A DNA stretch of 64,000 bases from Bradyrhizobium sp. SZCCT0148 (lineage in GTDB: Bacteria > Pseudomonadota > Alphaproteobacteria > Rhizobiales > Xanthobacteraceae): the NCBI RefSeq assembly GCF_018129985.1, contig NZ_JAFCKT010000004.1, positions 372,001-436,000 of the forward strand. The letters run 5' to 3'. The notes beneath the pieces are model-generated. The model saw only the letters and a program-made list of their open reading frames with translations, ran no database searches and had not been told where the DNA came from. Positions 17,325 to 28,597 of the stretch are shown here, piece after piece. Position 1 is the first letter of the stretch, and every line of letters starts with the position of its first letter. The position numbers were made by a program, and so were the translations under genes.

Positions 17325-17399
17325 GTCATTGCGAGCGCAGCGAAGCAATCCAGAACGCCTCAGCGGGATACTGGATTGCTTTGCTGCGCTCGCAATGAC
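17325..17399. repeat. Palindromic (REP-like) repeat, 29-bp arms
   Basis: Arms at 17325-17353 (begins gtcattgcgagcgcagcgaa) and 17371-17399 (ends gctgcgctcgcaatgac) are inverted copies with a single mismatch around a 17-nt centre. This type, gtcattgcgagcgcagcgaagcaatcc, is frequent between Bradyrhizobium genes. It lies between the convergent anti-sigma and hpnO genes and may stop transcription from both. Confidence 0.8.
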
Positions 17400-23550: not shown

Positions 23551-24711
23551 ATGGCTATTCCGTTCTTCAAGGAAATGCGTATCGGCGCCTACTTGCTCAA
23601 GCAGAAGATGCTTGGCCGCAAACGCTACCCGCTCGTGCTGATGCTGGAGCCGCTGTTCCGCTGCAACCTCGCCTGCGTCGGCTGCGGCAAGATCGATTAT
23701 CCCGATGCGATCCTCAACCGCCGCATGACCGCGCAGGAGTGCTGGGACGCGGCCGACGAGTGCGGCGCACCGATGGTCGCCATTCCCGGCGGCGAGCCGC
23801 TGATCCACAAGGAGATCGGCGAGATCGTGCGCGGCCTCGTTGAGCGCAAGAAGTTCGTTTCGCTCTGCACCAACGCGCTGCTGCTCGAGAAGAAGCTCGA
23901 TCTGTTCGAGCCCTCCCCGTACCTGTTCTTCTCCGTCCATCTCGACGGCCTGAAGGATCACCACGACAAGGCGGTGTCGCAGAAGGGCGTGTTCGACCGC
24001 GCGGTGTCCGCGATCAAGGCGGCCAAGGCGCGCGGCTTCACCGTCAACGTCAACGCCACCATCTTCGACGGCCATCCGGCCGAGGAGATCGCGAAGTTCC
24101 TCGACCTCACCGTCGAGCTCGGTGTCGGCGTCTCGATGTCGCCGGGCTACGCCTATGAGCGCGCACCGGACCAGGAGCACTTCCTGAACCGCACCAAGAC
24201 CAAGAAGCTGTTCCGCGACGTCTTTGCGATGGGCAAGGGCAAGAAGTGGAATTTCATGCATTCCGGCCTGTTCCTGGACTTCCTCGCCGGCAACCAGGAA
24301 TACGAGTGCACGCCGTGGGGCATGCCCGCGCGCAACATCTTCGGTTGGCAGAAGCCCTGCTACCTGCTCGGTGAAGGCTACGCCAAGACCTTCAAGGAGC
24401 TGATGGAGACCACCGACTGGGACAGCTACGGCACCGGCCGTTACGAGAAGTGCGCCGACTGTATGGCCCATTGCGGCTACGAACCGACGGCGGCGACTGC
24501 GGCGCTCAACAACCCGCTGAAGGCGATGTGGGTCTCGCTGCGCGGCATCAGGACCACGGGTCCGATGGCGCCGGAGATCGACATGAGCAAGCAGCGCCCG
24601 GCGCAGTACATCTTCTCGTCGGAAGTGCAGAAGCGCCTGTCGGAGATCCGCAAGGACGAGGCCGAAGCCGCGCAGGCAAAGGCCGCGCGGAAGGCGTCGA
24701 CGGCGGCGTAA
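23551..24711 (+). CDS. hpnH: HpnH, adenosylhopane synthase (radical SAM)
   Basis: Radical SAM enzyme that joins the 5'-deoxyadenosyl group to hopene, giving adenosylhopane, the first step of side-chain extension. The 386-aa length is typical. The 4Fe-4S motif CNLACVGC has cysteines at 38, 42 and 45; a C-terminal cysteine group (KCADCMAHCGYEP) and the SPASM-like tail are present. It follows ispH by 36 nt, with AAGAAA-type purines before the ATG, and is closed by a terminator at 24737-24768. Confidence 0.96.
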   Translation: MAIPFFKEMRIGAYLLKQKMLGRKRYPLVLMLEPLFRCNLACVGCGKIDYPDAILNRRMTAQECWDAADECGAPMVAIPGGEPLIHKEIGEIVRGLVERKKFVSLCTNALLLEKKLDLFEPSPYLFFSVHLDGLKDHHDKAVSQKGVFDRAVSAIKAAKARGFTVNVNATIFDGHPAEEIAKFLDLTVELGVGVSMSPGYAYERAPDQEHFLNRTKTKKLFRDVFAMGKGKKWNFMHSGLFLDFLAGNQEYECTPWGMPARNIFGWQKPCYLLGEGYAKTFKELMETTDWDSYGTGRYEKCADCMAHCGYEPTAATAALNNPLKAMWVSLRGIRTTGPMAPEIDMSKQRPAQYIFSSEVQKRLSEIRKDEAEAAQAKAARKASTAA

Positions 24712-24736
24712 AGCGTCAATCATACGTACAAACGAC

Positions 24737-24768
24737 AAAGGCCCGGCCGCGAACGCGACCGGGCCTTT
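24737..24768 (+). terminator. Rho-independent terminator of ispH-hpnH
   Basis: aaaggcccgg (24737-24746) pairs with ccgggccttt (24759-24768), followed by further T residues. It is 25 nt after the hpnH stop. Confidence 0.88.
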
Positions 24769-25625
24769 TCCTTTGCGCCAGTCGCGTGAGACATCGAGGC
24801 ACGATGCTCACTCGCAATGACGGCGTATGCGGCAACGGCCCGCTTTCTCCATGAACGCTCTTCATCGCAGGCGCGCCTTCGCATCCCCGCGGCGCATTTC
24901 GCCCGAGTGTTGCTGATCGTTGCCGCCCTCAACTGGACCAGAGGGCGCAGGGAAGGCCGGGCGCCGGCGGCACCCGCGGTCCGCGTGCATCGAAAACGCA
25001 CACGGGGTGGATCACAGGTGTTGCCGGTCGCCCGGCCTTCCCTGCGCGGATGGTTTTAACGGTGTCCTTCGTGCTCTCCTCGGGGAGCGTTGCACTATTG
25101 CCCCCGTCGCCTCACGGCTGATCGATGCGCGCACCGGTTGGCGGCCACATCACCGCGAGCCTTGACGCCAGAACCCCGGGCGCCGGGACCACACGACTTC
25201 TCCGTCCGCGGACGGCCTCGCCGAAAGCATCGGACGCTCGCGTGTGCTCGCCCCCGATATCCAGCGCGGCCGCTGTTACGGCGCCGTGTCGTTCGCGTCG
25301 CGCATGACTCAACGGTCGCCCGTCCCTGTCATCGCCCTTCCGCGCCGGCGCTGCCGCGTCCACCGCTCCCCGGCCCGCATCTCGTGACGATCGCGAAGCG
25401 CCCCTCTGGCAGGGCCGGGATAAACGCTCTATGTCACAAATCCGAAATTCGGGAAAGTGGAATATTTTTGCGCGGAGGGATTGACGGGTGTTGGGGTGTT
25501 TTGCCCGACGGGTCATTTTGACCAGCCGCTTGGCGCGCTGAACTTCACAAGGAGACGCTTCGGTTGCTCTGGCATCCGTCGTCCATGACAAACGCCCAAT
25601 TCTGGTCTTGATGGCTTCTTGACGT
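24769..25625. other. Gene-poor region between hpnH and hpnG
   Basis: About 860 nt with no convincing gene. Frames open here on either strand (for example 25112-25831 minus) are Arg/Ala-rich, lack ribosome sites and match nothing I know. The long hairpin at 24945-25047 and several smaller GC palindromes (ccgggcgccggg near 25177, gtccgcggac near 25204) dominate. The stretch ending ttttgcccgacgggtca (about 25499-25516) is one I associate with dispersed repeats in this group. Confidence 0.5.
24945..25047. other. Long near-continuous hairpin; candidate structured RNA or dispersed repeat
   Basis: A perfect 19-bp inverted repeat, gcgcagggaaggccgggcg (24945-24963) and its complement at 25029-25047, encloses further pairing arms: ccggcggcacc (24964-24974) with ggtgttgccgg (25017-25027, two mismatches) and ccgcgtgc with gcacacgg around a small loop. 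The result is an interrupted stem of about 103 nt. A smaller hairpin, gccctc/gagggc (24925-24946), abuts it. The surrounding GC-rich sequence up to about 25550 resembles, from memory, an intergenic sequence repeated in Bradyrhizobium and Rhodopseudomonas genomes. Confidence 0.65.
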
Positions 25626-25787
25626 TCACAGGCTAGAAGTGAACAGCGCACGCACGTCGTCGACGGACAGATCCATTGCCGACGACTCTCCCAGATTGCA
25701 CCAGAGCCGAAATCCTGGACCGAGAAACTCGACGTAAAAGCCACTGACAGGGCCGACAAGTGAAATCCGCTGGTTTTCATATGCGCT
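25626..25787 (-). pseudogene. Possible remnant of a small protein gene
   Basis: A 53-codon open stretch between stop codons reads like ordinary protein (GFYVEFLGPGFRLWCNLGES near the middle, then MDLSVDDVRALFTSSL at the end) but has no start codon apart from an internal ATG that would leave 16 residues. It could be a decayed gene or a chance frame. I know no family for it. Confidence 0.22.
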
Positions 25788-25816
25788 CTATGGGTCAATC
25801 GCTCACGGCAAAACAA

Positions 25817-25842
25817 AAAGCCCAGTCGCAAGACCGGGCTTT
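25817..25842 (-). terminator. Rho-independent terminator of the hpnC-D-E-shc-hpnG operon
   Basis: aaagccc (25817-25823) pairs with gggcttt (25836-25842). Read on the minus strand the stem is followed by TTTTTGTTTT, 27 nt past the hpnG stop. Confidence 0.85.
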
Positions 25843-25868
25843 CCTTTATTCTCAGCTCGCTGCTCCGC

Positions 25869-26618
25869 TCACGCCGCCTTCGACACCAGCACTTCGCTCT
25901 CGATCAGCTCCGTCCCGATCAGATAATCGCGGCAGCCGCGCAGGCTCCGCAGCGCGCGGTTGAAGTCGATGCCGGTCGAGACCAGTCCATGTAGCGCGGC
26001 GGGATTGCGCACGATGCCGAACAGCACAGCGGCAAGGTCGATCTGGCCGTTCGGCTTGATCGCGGCGCGGGCGAGTGCCGGCAGGGCGCGATGGGCGGGA
26101 TCGCTGATGACGCGGACCGCGGCGAACGGCAAGCCGGCCTCGGCGGCGTAGGCGGCCGCGATGTGGCTTTCCATGTCAACGGCAGAGGCGCCGGTCTCCG
26201 AATGCAGCGCCGCCTTGCAGGCGCGCTTGGTGACCACTTCCTCGGCACCGGCCAGGCTGCCGCGCACCACGCGGCGGCGGCCCGAGGTCAGGCGGTCGAT
26301 CAAATCGTCGCCGAGCGAGAGCCCCGCGGCCCAGCGGGTATCCCCGGAGAGTACTTCGGTCGCGAGCACCACGTCGCCCGAGCGCAAGCTCGGGTCGAGC
26401 CCGCCGGCAACGCCGAACGAGATCACGCCGCGAATCGTCTGGGGATCCACCACGGTCAGCAGCGCCCGCAACTGGGTCGGGCTGCTGGACGAACAAATCA
26501 CGGCCATTCCCGGCCCGGCTGCGATGCGGGCCTCTTGAACCAGTCCGGTCACGATCAAGATCGGCCGCGGATCAATGGCGTTGCCCGCGGTGAAAAAGTC
26601 CCCCGTCCCCAAAGTCAC
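25869..26618 (-). CDS. hpnG: HpnG, adenosylhopane nucleoside phosphorylase
   Basis: Phosphorylase-fold enzyme that removes adenine from adenosylhopane, leading to ribosylhopane. The 249-aa protein shows the PNP/MTAN-type core: VTGLVQEARIA, GVISFGVAGGLDPSL, SAVDMESHIAAAYA and FAAVRVISDPAHRALP. I start it at GTG 26618, which overlaps the shc stop (GTGA); the frame continues upstream only inside shc. Last gene of the leftward operon, followed by a terminator. Confidence 0.9.
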   Translation of the reverse strand: MTLGTGDFFTAGNAIDPRPILIVTGLVQEARIAAGPGMAVICSSSSPTQLRALLTVVDPQTIRGVISFGVAGGLDPSLRSGDVVLATEVLSGDTRWAAGLSLGDDLIDRLTSGRRRVVRGSLAGAEEVVTKRACKAALHSETGASAVDMESHIAAAYAAEAGLPFAAVRVISDPAHRALPALARAAIKPNGQIDLAAVLFGIVRNPAALHGLVSTGIDFNRALRSLRGCRDYLIGTELIESEVLVSKAA

Positions 26619-28597
26619 ATCCCGACCCCTACCACCCTGCTGTTGGTGTTCCGCAAGTTCCGATACCGCGCCAGTGCCCACAACGGAAAGAACTTTGGGT
26701 AACCATGATACCGCAGATAGAACACGCGGGGGAAGCCTGTGGCAGTGTACCGCTGCTCGTCCCACAGTCCTTTTTTGTTTTGTGTTGCAATCAGGTACTC
26801 CACCCCGCGGGCGACGGCCGGGTGATCAACCTCGCCTGCCGCCATCAGGGCAAGCAAGGCCCATGCCGTTTGCGAGGCGGTCGAGGGGGCGGCCTCCCAA
26901 CCCTTGTAATCGAGCCGGTAGCTGACGGCGTCCTCGCCCCAGCCGCCATCCTTGTTCTGGATCGAGGCTAGCCAGGCCGCGGCCTTGCGAATCATGGGGT
27001 CGTCGTGGCGGACGCCCGCCATGTTGAGGGCGCAGAGCACCGACCAGGTTCCATAGATGAAGTTCATGCCCCAGCGGCCGTACCAGGAGCCCTCCGGGTG
27101 CTGGGTCTTCCTGAGATAGGCGACCCCGTCGGCCACGTGCTTGCTGGTCTGCGCGGTCTCGCCGAGCTGGGCCAGCATCGAGATGCAGCGCGCCGTGACA
27201 TCCTCGGTCGGCGGGTCGAGCAGCGCGCCGTGGTCGGAGAACGGGATGTTGTTCAGGTAATATTCGAGATTGTTGACGTCGAAGGCAGCCCAGCCGCCGT
27301 CGTCGCTCTGCATGCCCTCGATCCACTCCCGGCCACGGGCGATCGCGGCGTCGTAGCCGGTCGCACCATGCTCCCGGCGCATGCGGTCCATCGACATCAC
27401 CACCACGGCGGTGTCGTCGAGATCGGGGTAATGCGCATTGTTGTACTGGAAGGCCCAGCCGCCCGGACGCACGTCAGGCCGCTTCACCGCCCAGTCGCCC
27501 TTGACCTGAAGCTCCTGCTTGGGGATCAGCCAGTCGAGGCCCTGCCTTGCCGCAGGCACCGCCTTGTCGCCGCCGGCTTCCAGCAGCGCATGCGCGGTCA
27601 ACGTCGTATCCCACACCGGCGAGACGCAGGGCTGGCAATAGGCCTCGTCGTCCTTGATCACCAGCAGCTTGTCGATGCCCCGGCGCGTGATCGCGCGCGG
27701 CGGGAAGTTCTCGTCCTTGCCGAGCGCGTCGTACATCATGACGATGTTGGCCATGGGCGGGTAGATCGCGCCCATGCCGTCCTCGCCGTTGAGCCGCTCC
27801 TCGGTGAAGGCGAGCGCGGCATCTATCGCACGCTTGCGCAGGCTCTTCGGGAACATCGGCTCGATGACGCGCAGGATCGCGTCGAGCGAGCGGAACAGCA
27901 GGAACCAGGCCATGCTCTGGTGCGGCGCCTTCGCGGTCATGCCGATCGAGCGCGGATCCTGCAGGAACAGCTCGTCGATGCCGACCCCCTTCGGATTCTT
28001 CGCGCGCGGCTTGAGCGCGGCGATGACCATCAGCGGCACCATGGTGGTGCGCGCCCAGTAGGAGATCTTGTTGATGTGGAACGGCGACCAGAACGGCAGC
28101 AGCACGATCTCGATCGGCAGCACCGGCACCGCGCGCCAGGTCACCACGCCGAACATCGCCAGCATGAAGCGCGTGAAGACGTTGCTGTGAATGGCGCCGC
28201 CGCGCGCATGGATCGCCTCGCGCGCACGTACCATGTGCGGCGCGTCGATGGAATCGCCGATCATCTTCAGCGCGAAGTAAGCCTTCACGCTGGCGCTCAT
28301 GTCGAACTCGCCGTCATGCACCAGCGGCCAGCCGCCATGGGCGCCCTGGATGCGGCGCAGATAGTTGGCGATCTTGGCCTCGAGCACGGCATCGACCGGC
28401 TCGGCGAGGTAGTGGCGCAACAGGACGTATTCGGCGGGGATCGTGCAGTCGGCCTCGAGCTCGAACACCCAATGGCCGTCGGCCTGCTGGAAGCCGATGA
28501 CGCCCTCGGTCGCCGATGCAATGCTCGATTCCAGGACGCCCGGTTGCAAGATCCCTGGCTGAAGGCCTTCACGGCTGGTCGCGTTCACGGAATCCAT
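26615..28597 (-). CDS. shc: Squalene-hopene cyclase (HpnF)
   Basis: Converts squalene to hopene and diplopterol on the inner membrane. The 660-aa protein has the acid motif DLDD at residues 392-395 (DxDD; the central Asp starts cyclisation) and many QW-type repeats such as DGGWAAF, EGSWYGRWG and DGGWGEDAVSY near the C-terminus. Start ATG 28597 gives the usual length. It lies 64 nt after hpnE and overlaps hpnG by 4 nt. Confidence 0.97.
   Translation of the reverse strand: MDSVNATSREGLQPGILQPGVLESSIASATEGVIGFQQADGHWVFELEADCTIPAEYVLLRHYLAEPVDAVLEAKIANYLRRIQGAHGGWPLVHDGEFDMSASVKAYFALKMIGDSIDAPHMVRAREAIHARGGAIHSNVFTRFMLAMFGVVTWRAVPVLPIEIVLLPFWSPFHINKISYWARTTMVPLMVIAALKPRAKNPKGVGIDELFLQDPRSIGMTAKAPHQSMAWFLLFRSLDAILRVIEPMFPKSLRKRAIDAALAFTEERLNGEDGMGAIYPPMANIVMMYDALGKDENFPPRAITRRGIDKLLVIKDDEAYCQPCVSPVWDTTLTAHALLEAGGDKAVPAARQGLDWLIPKQELQVKGDWAVKRPDVRPGGWAFQYNNAHYPDLDDTAVVVMSMDRMRREHGATGYDAAIARGREWIEGMQSDDGGWAAFDVNNLEYYLNNIPFSDHGALLDPPTEDVTARCISMLAQLGETAQTSKHVADGVAYLRKTQHPEGSWYGRWGMNFIYGTWSVLCALNMAGVRHDDPMIRKAAAWLASIQNKDGGWGEDAVSYRLDYKGWEAAPSTASQTAWALLALMAAGEVDHPAVARGVEYLIATQNKKGLWDEQRYTATGFPRVFYLRYHGYPKFFPLWALARYRNLRNTNSRVVGVGM

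Follow-up and report, generated by a model that had tools for sequence, protein, structure and literature searches.

Introduction

Bradyrhizobium is a genus known for soybean nitrogen fixation. Two Bradyrhizobium repeats, Br-REP1 and Br-REP2, have been described with consensus sequences of 20-40 nt (Hahn et al. 2016, PMC5082802), and the accessible part of that paper states that Br-REP2 lies in a larger element, for which data are not shown there. Among structured motifs regarded as mobile or repeat candidates, one has dozens of copies per genome, according to the accessible part of its description (PMC11109978). The group II intron RmInt1 is described, again in the part of the source available, as inserting at the lagging-strand template (PMC8914252).

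The locus considered here is the gap between hpnH and hpnG in a stretch of 64,000 nucleotides of Bradyrhizobium sp. SZCCT0148 (hereafter the window, whose positions are used throughout). A hairpin noticed in this gap is one domain of a dispersed unit of 646 bp (24867-25512), the functional strand of which is the minus strand. On the best reading, the unit represents a new family of large predicted structured non-coding RNA units, mobile or amplified, which is set apart by the Rfam search and by the literature searched. To our knowledge, bacterial RNAs of comparable size and complexity are few. Every one of the 12 complete Bradyrhizobium genomes tested contains the unit, at 16-43 copies each, yet no Rfam family accounts for it, and its fold, strand and predicted start are now specific enough for experiment.

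The hpnH-hpnG gap and the extent of the unit

The genes flanking the gap are convergent: hpnH (23551-24711, plus strand) contains Radical_SAM and DUF3463 domains, and hpnG (25869-26765, minus strand) a PNP_UDP_1 domain. The gene names are those of the original prediction, with which the domains found are compatible. This prediction, made from the sequence, described a long hairpin at 24945-25047 with a perfect 19-bp inverted repeat, and the hairpin is indeed real, with the repeat located at 24945-24963 and 25029-25047. RNA folding of the 146 nt from 24925 to 25070 gave -95.9 kcal/mol (z = -8.0), a stability reached by none of 200 shuffled sequences. A protein-coding gene was rejected, as had been expected, since five open reading frames of the gap gave no Pfam or NCBIfam match near the cut-off (the weak Pfam matches, with E values of 0.066-0.28, remained below it).

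In alignments of 86 and 185 distinct copies, conservation begins sharply at GCAGACACGCC and stops equally sharply at GTGTTTTGCCCGACGGG. The coordinates first proposed therefore did contain a hairpin, but they cover a single domain, approximately one-sixth of the conserved 646 bp. According to the copy alignments, the left end of the unit (24867-24877) is the conserved 3' end in the RNA sense, GYGTYTGC, and its conserved right end is GTGTTTTGCCCGACGGG on the plus strand (25496-25512). The statement that sequence with the end TTTTGCCCGACGGGTC recurs in this bacterial group proved accurate, this being the conserved right end in many copies of the unit; TTTGACCCGTCGGGCAAAACA is present also inside a different sequence that follows hpnH in relatives (L122, L126, L143).

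Several other repeats have settled in the hpnH-hpnG gap of relatives (L135, L139, L122, L126, L138, L143), namely paired CCGGATGGAGCGC..., GTCATTGCGAGCG...CGCAATGACG and one with AAAAAGTGAAAAACAACCCCATGCACAGTAGAA. In the window, CGCAATGACG, a piece of another Bradyrhizobium repeat, lies at 24806-24823, approx. 45 bp outside the unit, and occurs again at 17391.

Copy number, taxonomic spread and subfamilies

The original prediction proposed a BLASTN search with 24900-25560, and this search did reveal other copies. In the genome of origin (42 contigs), it returned the query and seven other matches of 519-608 bp with 77-84% identity, as well as many shorter ones. This genome has 84 contig ends, at least 20 of which (13 starts and 7 ends) lie inside the repeat, and the unit seems to break short-read assemblies. 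Across the genus, 192 of 195 genomes gave a match, with a query that included flanks. Copies were counted with a covariance model, R1, which was built from 34 sequences and represents the 140 nt of the conserved core; it detected 37 copies in the complete genome G163, all with E values of at most 4.5e-16 (limit 0.01). The counts in the 12 complete genomes of the genus were 16, 17, 19, 22, 23, 25, 26, 30, 31, 35, 37 and 43.

Outside the genus, 40 of 149 genomes drawn from the GTDB family matched by BLAST, 33 of which belong to other genera; the matches included colinear homologues, many of full length. When R1 was applied to 20 other-genus genomes, chosen from those with and without BLAST matches, 16 contained 1-19 copies (many of them weak) and 4 contained none. 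Draws from the order and the class (for the latter, 11 candidates were scored per genome) gave only chance-like matches outside the GTDB family, and no match came from the collections of plasmids and phages. In named genomes, a pattern scan found at least 118 stretches; among the matches listed, nearly all were from Bradyrhizobium, the others including Afipia, Rhodopseudomonas pseudopalustris and some metagenome-assembled genomes, whereas records named Frankia, Reyranella and Acidiferrales may reflect contamination or misnaming. The scan of viral contigs found three, of which two match the unit over about half its length and one had no profile match. The two IMG/VR contigs that carry about half a unit (L319 and L320) are perhaps prophage edges.

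The G163 copies fall into three subfamilies: A, which resembles the window copy; B, with a shorter middle; and C, consisting of 11 copies that are 90-99% alike and four more divergent ones (L085, L091, L092 and L093). On one side, many subfamily C copies (within L079-L092) are flanked by the same repeat, CCGTAGGGTGGGCAAAGGCGC..., and on the other side several have CCGTAGCCCGGATGAGCG... in common. Because these flanking repeats are shared, the amplified unit is not always the same.

A fold conserved on one strand

Compensatory base changes, which had been suggested as a check among the copies, proved plentiful. The alignment comprised 185 distinct copies (duplicates with the same core, copies containing runs of N and those short of nearly full length were dropped), and candidate helices were ranked by how often compensatory changes had arisen independently on a tree built from the copies, with slid registers as a control. 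The 15 best of 1528 candidates form one fold and one local alternative within the long hairpin, and each of them exceeds all 300 null replicates, as do two lower-ranked candidates outside the model (303-306/413-416 and 487-490/507-510); this null is rough, as the probability that pairing survives a coincident change is set at one in three. The resulting 16-helix model of 101 pairs (one column being claimed twice) has 203 compensatory events and 93.6% standard pairs, a score obtained on the same alignment from which the structure was chosen; slid by 1-3 columns, the same model has 6-26 events and 40-49% standard pairs. A first test, which compared a pairwise covariation statistic with a tree-simulated null, gave no pair at E < 0.05, and such pairwise statistics are dominated by the splits between subfamilies. 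Gene conversion among copies could inflate the counts for local helices, and less so for strands that are approx. 450 nt apart.

Read on the minus strand, the pairing cells contain 9.4% G-U and 1.9% A-C combinations, which marks the minus strand as the functional one. The feature by which a structured non-coding RNA is recognised, namely helices that covary on a single strand, was thus found, and the proposal of a plain DNA-bending palindrome is disfavoured by this strand-specific covariation.

All parts of the fold are given here on the minus strand, in the 5' to 3' direction of the predicted RNA. The first helix (25412-25419/25369-25376, 20 events) delimits a region, 25369-25419, that is the core of R1, and its loop carries the 5' strand of a pseudoknot (25398-25409, GCGCCCCTCTGG on the plus strand), as indicated by copy-by-copy pairing and by compensatory events. 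A second domain, 25281-25351, contains the helices 25346-25351/25281-25286 (15 events), 25341-25344/approx. 25294-25297 (5), 25328-25331/25305-25308 (21) and 25320-25324/25311-25315 (8). It is followed by a multi-branch domain (25069-25196) that is closed by 25191-25196/25069-25074 (12 events) and encloses the helices 25180-25185/25163-25168 (17), 25153-25160/25110-25117 (17), 25146-25151/25124-25129 (12), approx. 25139-25142/25133-25136 (15) and 25101-25106/25081-25086 (13). Next comes the hairpin from which the analysis started (24945-25047), with helices of 19 and 5 bp (15 and 8 events, in addition to its folding energy), then the 3' strand of the pseudoknot (24938-24948, CCAGAGGGCGC on the plus strand, partner 25398-25409, 15 events) and, finally, a 3' terminal hairpin of two stacked 4-bp helices (24886-24907, 9 and 1 events).

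The pseudoknot pairs 25402-25409 with 24938-24945, strands approx. 450 nt apart, and crosses the first helix; base 24945 is claimed twice in the model, by the long hairpin and by the pseudoknot. Its strands covary in step (CCAAAG/CTTTGG, GAGACAAGG/CCTTGTCTC and CAACGAGGG/CCCTCGTTG). Among copies from outside the model, the 3' strand was found in the same place in all 11 copies of G455 and in the single copy of G508, with 2-6 further pairs past the common core and one new compensated pair, ATCCAA/TTGGAT; eight divergent G459 copies of the same set showed no clear pseudoknot partner. In addition, 24925-24930 can pair with 24941-24946, that is, the 3' strand of the pseudoknot with its own 3' neighbour in the RNA, which is exclusive of the pseudoknot. 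The two exclusive pairings at 24925-24948 possibly constitute a switch.

Within this context, the unit might be regarded as an ordinary palindromic DNA repeat of the REP, ERIC or MITE kind, in which the pairing merely reflects DNA inverted repeats. It is dispersed and intergenic, as such repeats are, it adjoins other short palindromic repeats, and its ends, GCAGACACGCC and (GG)GCAAAACACC, are weakly similar by eye, a resemblance that is weak at most; no clear terminal inverted repeat and no clean target duplication were seen. However, neither the asymmetry between G-U and A-C nor a covarying pair that crosses a helix over such a distance would be expected of DNA palindromes; the length of 646 bp is also against this explanation, which we consider highly improbable.

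Comparison with Rfam (4227 families) brought no family to threshold, either for the window copy (E limit 5) or for six diverse copies (E limit 0.5), all matches being sub-threshold, and a known RNA family was thus rejected. Group II intron families are included in Rfam, and a group II intron was rejected as well, there being no match on the window copy or on the six diverse copies. The same applies to HEARO or omega-RNA of IS200/IS605, which gave no Rfam match; moreover, no unit split by an insertion the size of an open reading frame was seen among the loci examined.

A promoter-like region inside the unit

In other genera, a sigma70-like promoter lies directly before the first helix. By eye, TTGAC is present at the expected position in 25 of 31 loci (14 of the 18 that represent several genera, all 11 of G455 and neither of the remaining two). 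Under a strict two-box rule, 9 of 25 other-genus loci pass, compared with none of 25 in a control interval farther upstream and 0.8 expected by shuffling. The -10 box is frequently inside a palindrome, for example AGGATTATATTCCT. In Bradyrhizobium, the same place has CTTTACC, 17 nt and boxes such as TATGTG or CATAGA, with the palindrome CCGAAATTCGG in the spacer, and the number of loci that pass the strict rule (7 of 171 vs. 3.1 by shuffling) is near chance. The window copy, the promoter-like region of which (25428-25456, minus strand) occupies the place of TTGACA-N16-18-TATAWT in other genera, has TTTCCC (25456-25451), 17 nt and CATAGA (25433-25428), with CCGAAATTCGG (25442-25452) in the spacer; its boxes are weak and fail the strict two-box rule.

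Indirect support for transcription of the predicted RNA comes from the fixed position of this promoter, which is strong in other genera; judging from the sequence, the RNA would start near 25421 and be approx. 550 nt long. No intrinsic terminator is evident at its predicted 3' end. In the alignment of 185 copies, no conserved promoter was found upstream of the right end of the unit, the promoter-like region being inside it.

Genomic placement and presence at individual loci

According to simple calling of open reading frames, the 37 copies in G163 are intergenic (two were flagged as possibly overlapping a reading frame): 11 lie between divergent genes, 7 between convergent genes, and 10 and 9 between tandem genes that run in the RNA sense and opposite to it, respectively. 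Judged by positions, gene identities not being used, no constant neighbour gene was seen among them.

This distribution bears on the simplest explanation of the hairpin, that of a transcription terminator between hpnH and hpnG, for which a strong hairpin in a convergent gap would speak. Nonetheless, the original prediction had rightly pointed out that both neighbours have terminators of their own, as terminator-like hairpins precede the repeat on either side (24737-24768 for hpnH and, by eye, approx. 25815-25845 for hpnG), and that the hairpin is more than a plain terminator, which the 11 copies between divergent genes and the 7 between convergent ones support. A scan of 24700-25900 found no terminator at the long hairpin (with a loop limit of 8, which excludes the full hairpin), no T run follows it by eye, and in two relatives that lack the unit only approx. 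80-90 bp separate the two genes. An intrinsic terminator was rejected on the basis of the missing T run and of the 7 of 37 convergent placements. Local effects on readthrough are possible, but as an account of the unit a terminator is barely credible.

At the hpnH locus, the unit is present, whole or in part, in 16 of 30 cases (the window included), and none is found within 1500 bp in the other 14. At a second locus, five genomes have full units, others have remnants and some have none; where the unit is missing, the sequence resembles a deletion more than a clean empty site. A sharply bounded unit is thus present at one locus in some genomes and absent from it in others, as would be looked for in a mobile element, and the absence may be due to deletion. 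Orthologous copies also persist between species, which counts against mobility to the extent that a recent mobile burst would not need them. At the second locus, an orthologous pair is 89% identical, whereas a paralogue within the same genome is 99% identical, which points to homogenisation among the copies of a genome.

Observations of this kind could also be expected from a multi-copy family of host non-coding RNA genes, comparable to rRNA operons, in which gene conversion keeps the copies alike and nothing is selfish. Such a family would account for the promoter before the fold, for paralogues that are more alike than orthologues, and for orthologous copies in several species together with the presence of the unit in 12 of 12 complete genomes. 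Less easily reconciled with it are the variable copy number (16-43 in the genus, 1-19 in other-genus carriers and zero in 4 of the 20), the coming and going of copies at given loci, where remnants are left, and the absence of a constant neighbour gene (by positions). It is the main rival to the reading favoured below, and we regard it as a tentative possibility that is rather less than likely.

Orientation relative to replication

The origin of G163 was approximated by gidA (0.21 Mb) and the terminus was put at 3.8 Mb; among samples of GC skew, 8 of 9 at 0.8-3.6 Mb are positive and all 8 at 3.95-6.4 Mb are negative. Of its 37 copies, 28 are co-directional with replication (p = 0.0026), compared with 40 of 74 neighbouring genes, and the share differs by subfamily: 15 of 15 for C (11 of 11 for the set that is 90-99% alike) and 13 of 22 for A and B together. 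Across the 12 complete genomes, 103 of 155 matches are co-directional, these matches being all 37 of G163 and 118 of 287 in the other 11 genomes, with orthologous loci counted repeatedly and hence non-independent. By distance from gidA, in fractions of genome length (rounded lengths for G076, G142 and G021), co-directional matches number 54 of 60 within 0.3, 34 of 45 at 0.3-0.4 and 15 of 50 at 0.4-0.5. Thus, copies near the terminus in the 12 genomes are mostly opposite to replication, the reverse of the remaining chromosome. Genomes also differ in this respect (8 of 17 in G062 and 7 of 14 in G125).

Under the host-gene explanation, co-directionality would result from selection on transcription-replication conflict and on inversions. 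The bias outside the terminus would also suit a folded single-stranded DNA site for transposition or priming, as the strand that folds coincides with the lagging-strand template wherever a copy is co-directional. Because G-T wobble is tolerated in single-stranded DNA as G-U is in RNA, the strand asymmetry does not separate the two. Nonetheless, the promoter that other genera have at a constant distance from the first helix speaks against a DNA site, long folds with a pseudoknot are more typical of RNA, and unpaired columns contain, in the RNA sense, 24.5% A and 18.5% T, a weak sign in the same direction. A DNA site, third in our ranking, therefore seems quite unlikely.

A mobile element offers a further reading of the bias, since insertion at the lagging-strand template, as described for RmInt1 in the accessible part of the source (PMC8914252), would give co-directional copies. 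In its most specific form, the unit would be a bacterial SINE-like retroelement, a pseudoknotted RNA with its own promoter that is transcribed, then reverse-transcribed in trans by a helper enzyme and inserted at the lagging-strand template. If true, this would account for the co-directional copies, including all 15 in the most uniform subfamily, for sharp ends that include the promoter, and for selection that acts on the fold of an RNA and not on a protein. The search for an intron family, a helper gene or a target site found none. We consider this form speculative and unlikely.

Conclusions and comparison with known systems

Both the non-coding RNA and the mobile non-autonomous repeat that the original prediction had listed among its options are supported, and they are seemingly one thing, a dispersed unit that conserves an RNA-like fold. 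A selected fold, sharp bounds, dispersal, polymorphism and a promoter in related genera are together best explained by a non-autonomous mobile RNA element, which ranks first among the readings considered. To the broader statement, that the unit is a dispersed, non-autonomous mobile or amplified family of non-coding RNA of approx. 550 nt, we give an even chance, transcription and mobility being presumed. In its favour are the dispersed, intergenic copies with sharp ends, compensatory pairing on one strand, presence or absence at given loci and the co-directional bias outside the terminus; against it stand the near-chance promoter in Bradyrhizobium, the lack of an evident terminator at the 3' end of the RNA, the deletion-like loci without a unit, the 15 of 50 co-directional matches near the terminus, the shared flanks of subfamily C and the null result of the first pairwise covariation test.

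If this mobile RNA element is real, each unit would consist of a promoter-like region and an RNA of approx. 550 nt, read here from the minus strand. The RNA would fold into several domains tied together by the pseudoknot, in which the loop of the first helix pairs with the stretch immediately 3' of the long hairpin, and it would be both made and itself the target of selection. The family might spread as a non-autonomous, selfish-like element, with its fold used by a putative helper that acts perhaps on the lagging-strand template while this is single-stranded. Homogenisation also seems to occur among the copies of one genome. No helper gene was found, and in the loci examined a reverse transcriptase is neither part of the unit nor attached to it.

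The literature searched, in which coverage of subscription papers was thin, held no description of the unit, and its nearest relatives must be sought among systems that share some of its properties. RmInt1 is a mobile RNA with a structured fold and, as far as its description is available, makes use of the lagging-strand template (PMC8914252), from which co-directional copies would follow; unlike RmInt1, the unit matches no intron model and neither contains nor adjoins a reverse transcriptase. GOLLD, ROOL and OLE, in the accessible account (PMC12286853), are large structured bacterial RNAs with a role that is unknown or partly known, much like the predicted RNA, but the unit reaches threshold for no Rfam family and occurs in tens of copies per genome. 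Br-REP1 and Br-REP2 resemble it in being dispersed, intergenic, present in Bradyrhizobium and relatives and able to form RNA stem-loops, although they are short, with a consensus of 20-40 nt against 646 bp (PMC5082802, accessible part). With the consensus given there, Br-REP1 and the searched part of Br-REP2 are absent from the window above chance, the best match of the consensus pieces inside the unit having 6-8 mismatches in 17-20 positions; a link to the larger element of Br-REP2 is possible. The mobile or repeat candidates of PMC11109978 are, in the part available, also multi-copy structured motifs and were judged to be selfish nucleic acid elements. The example described there consists of one long stem carrying a UYCCGG repeat, whereas the present unit has many domains, a pseudoknot and a promoter-like region.
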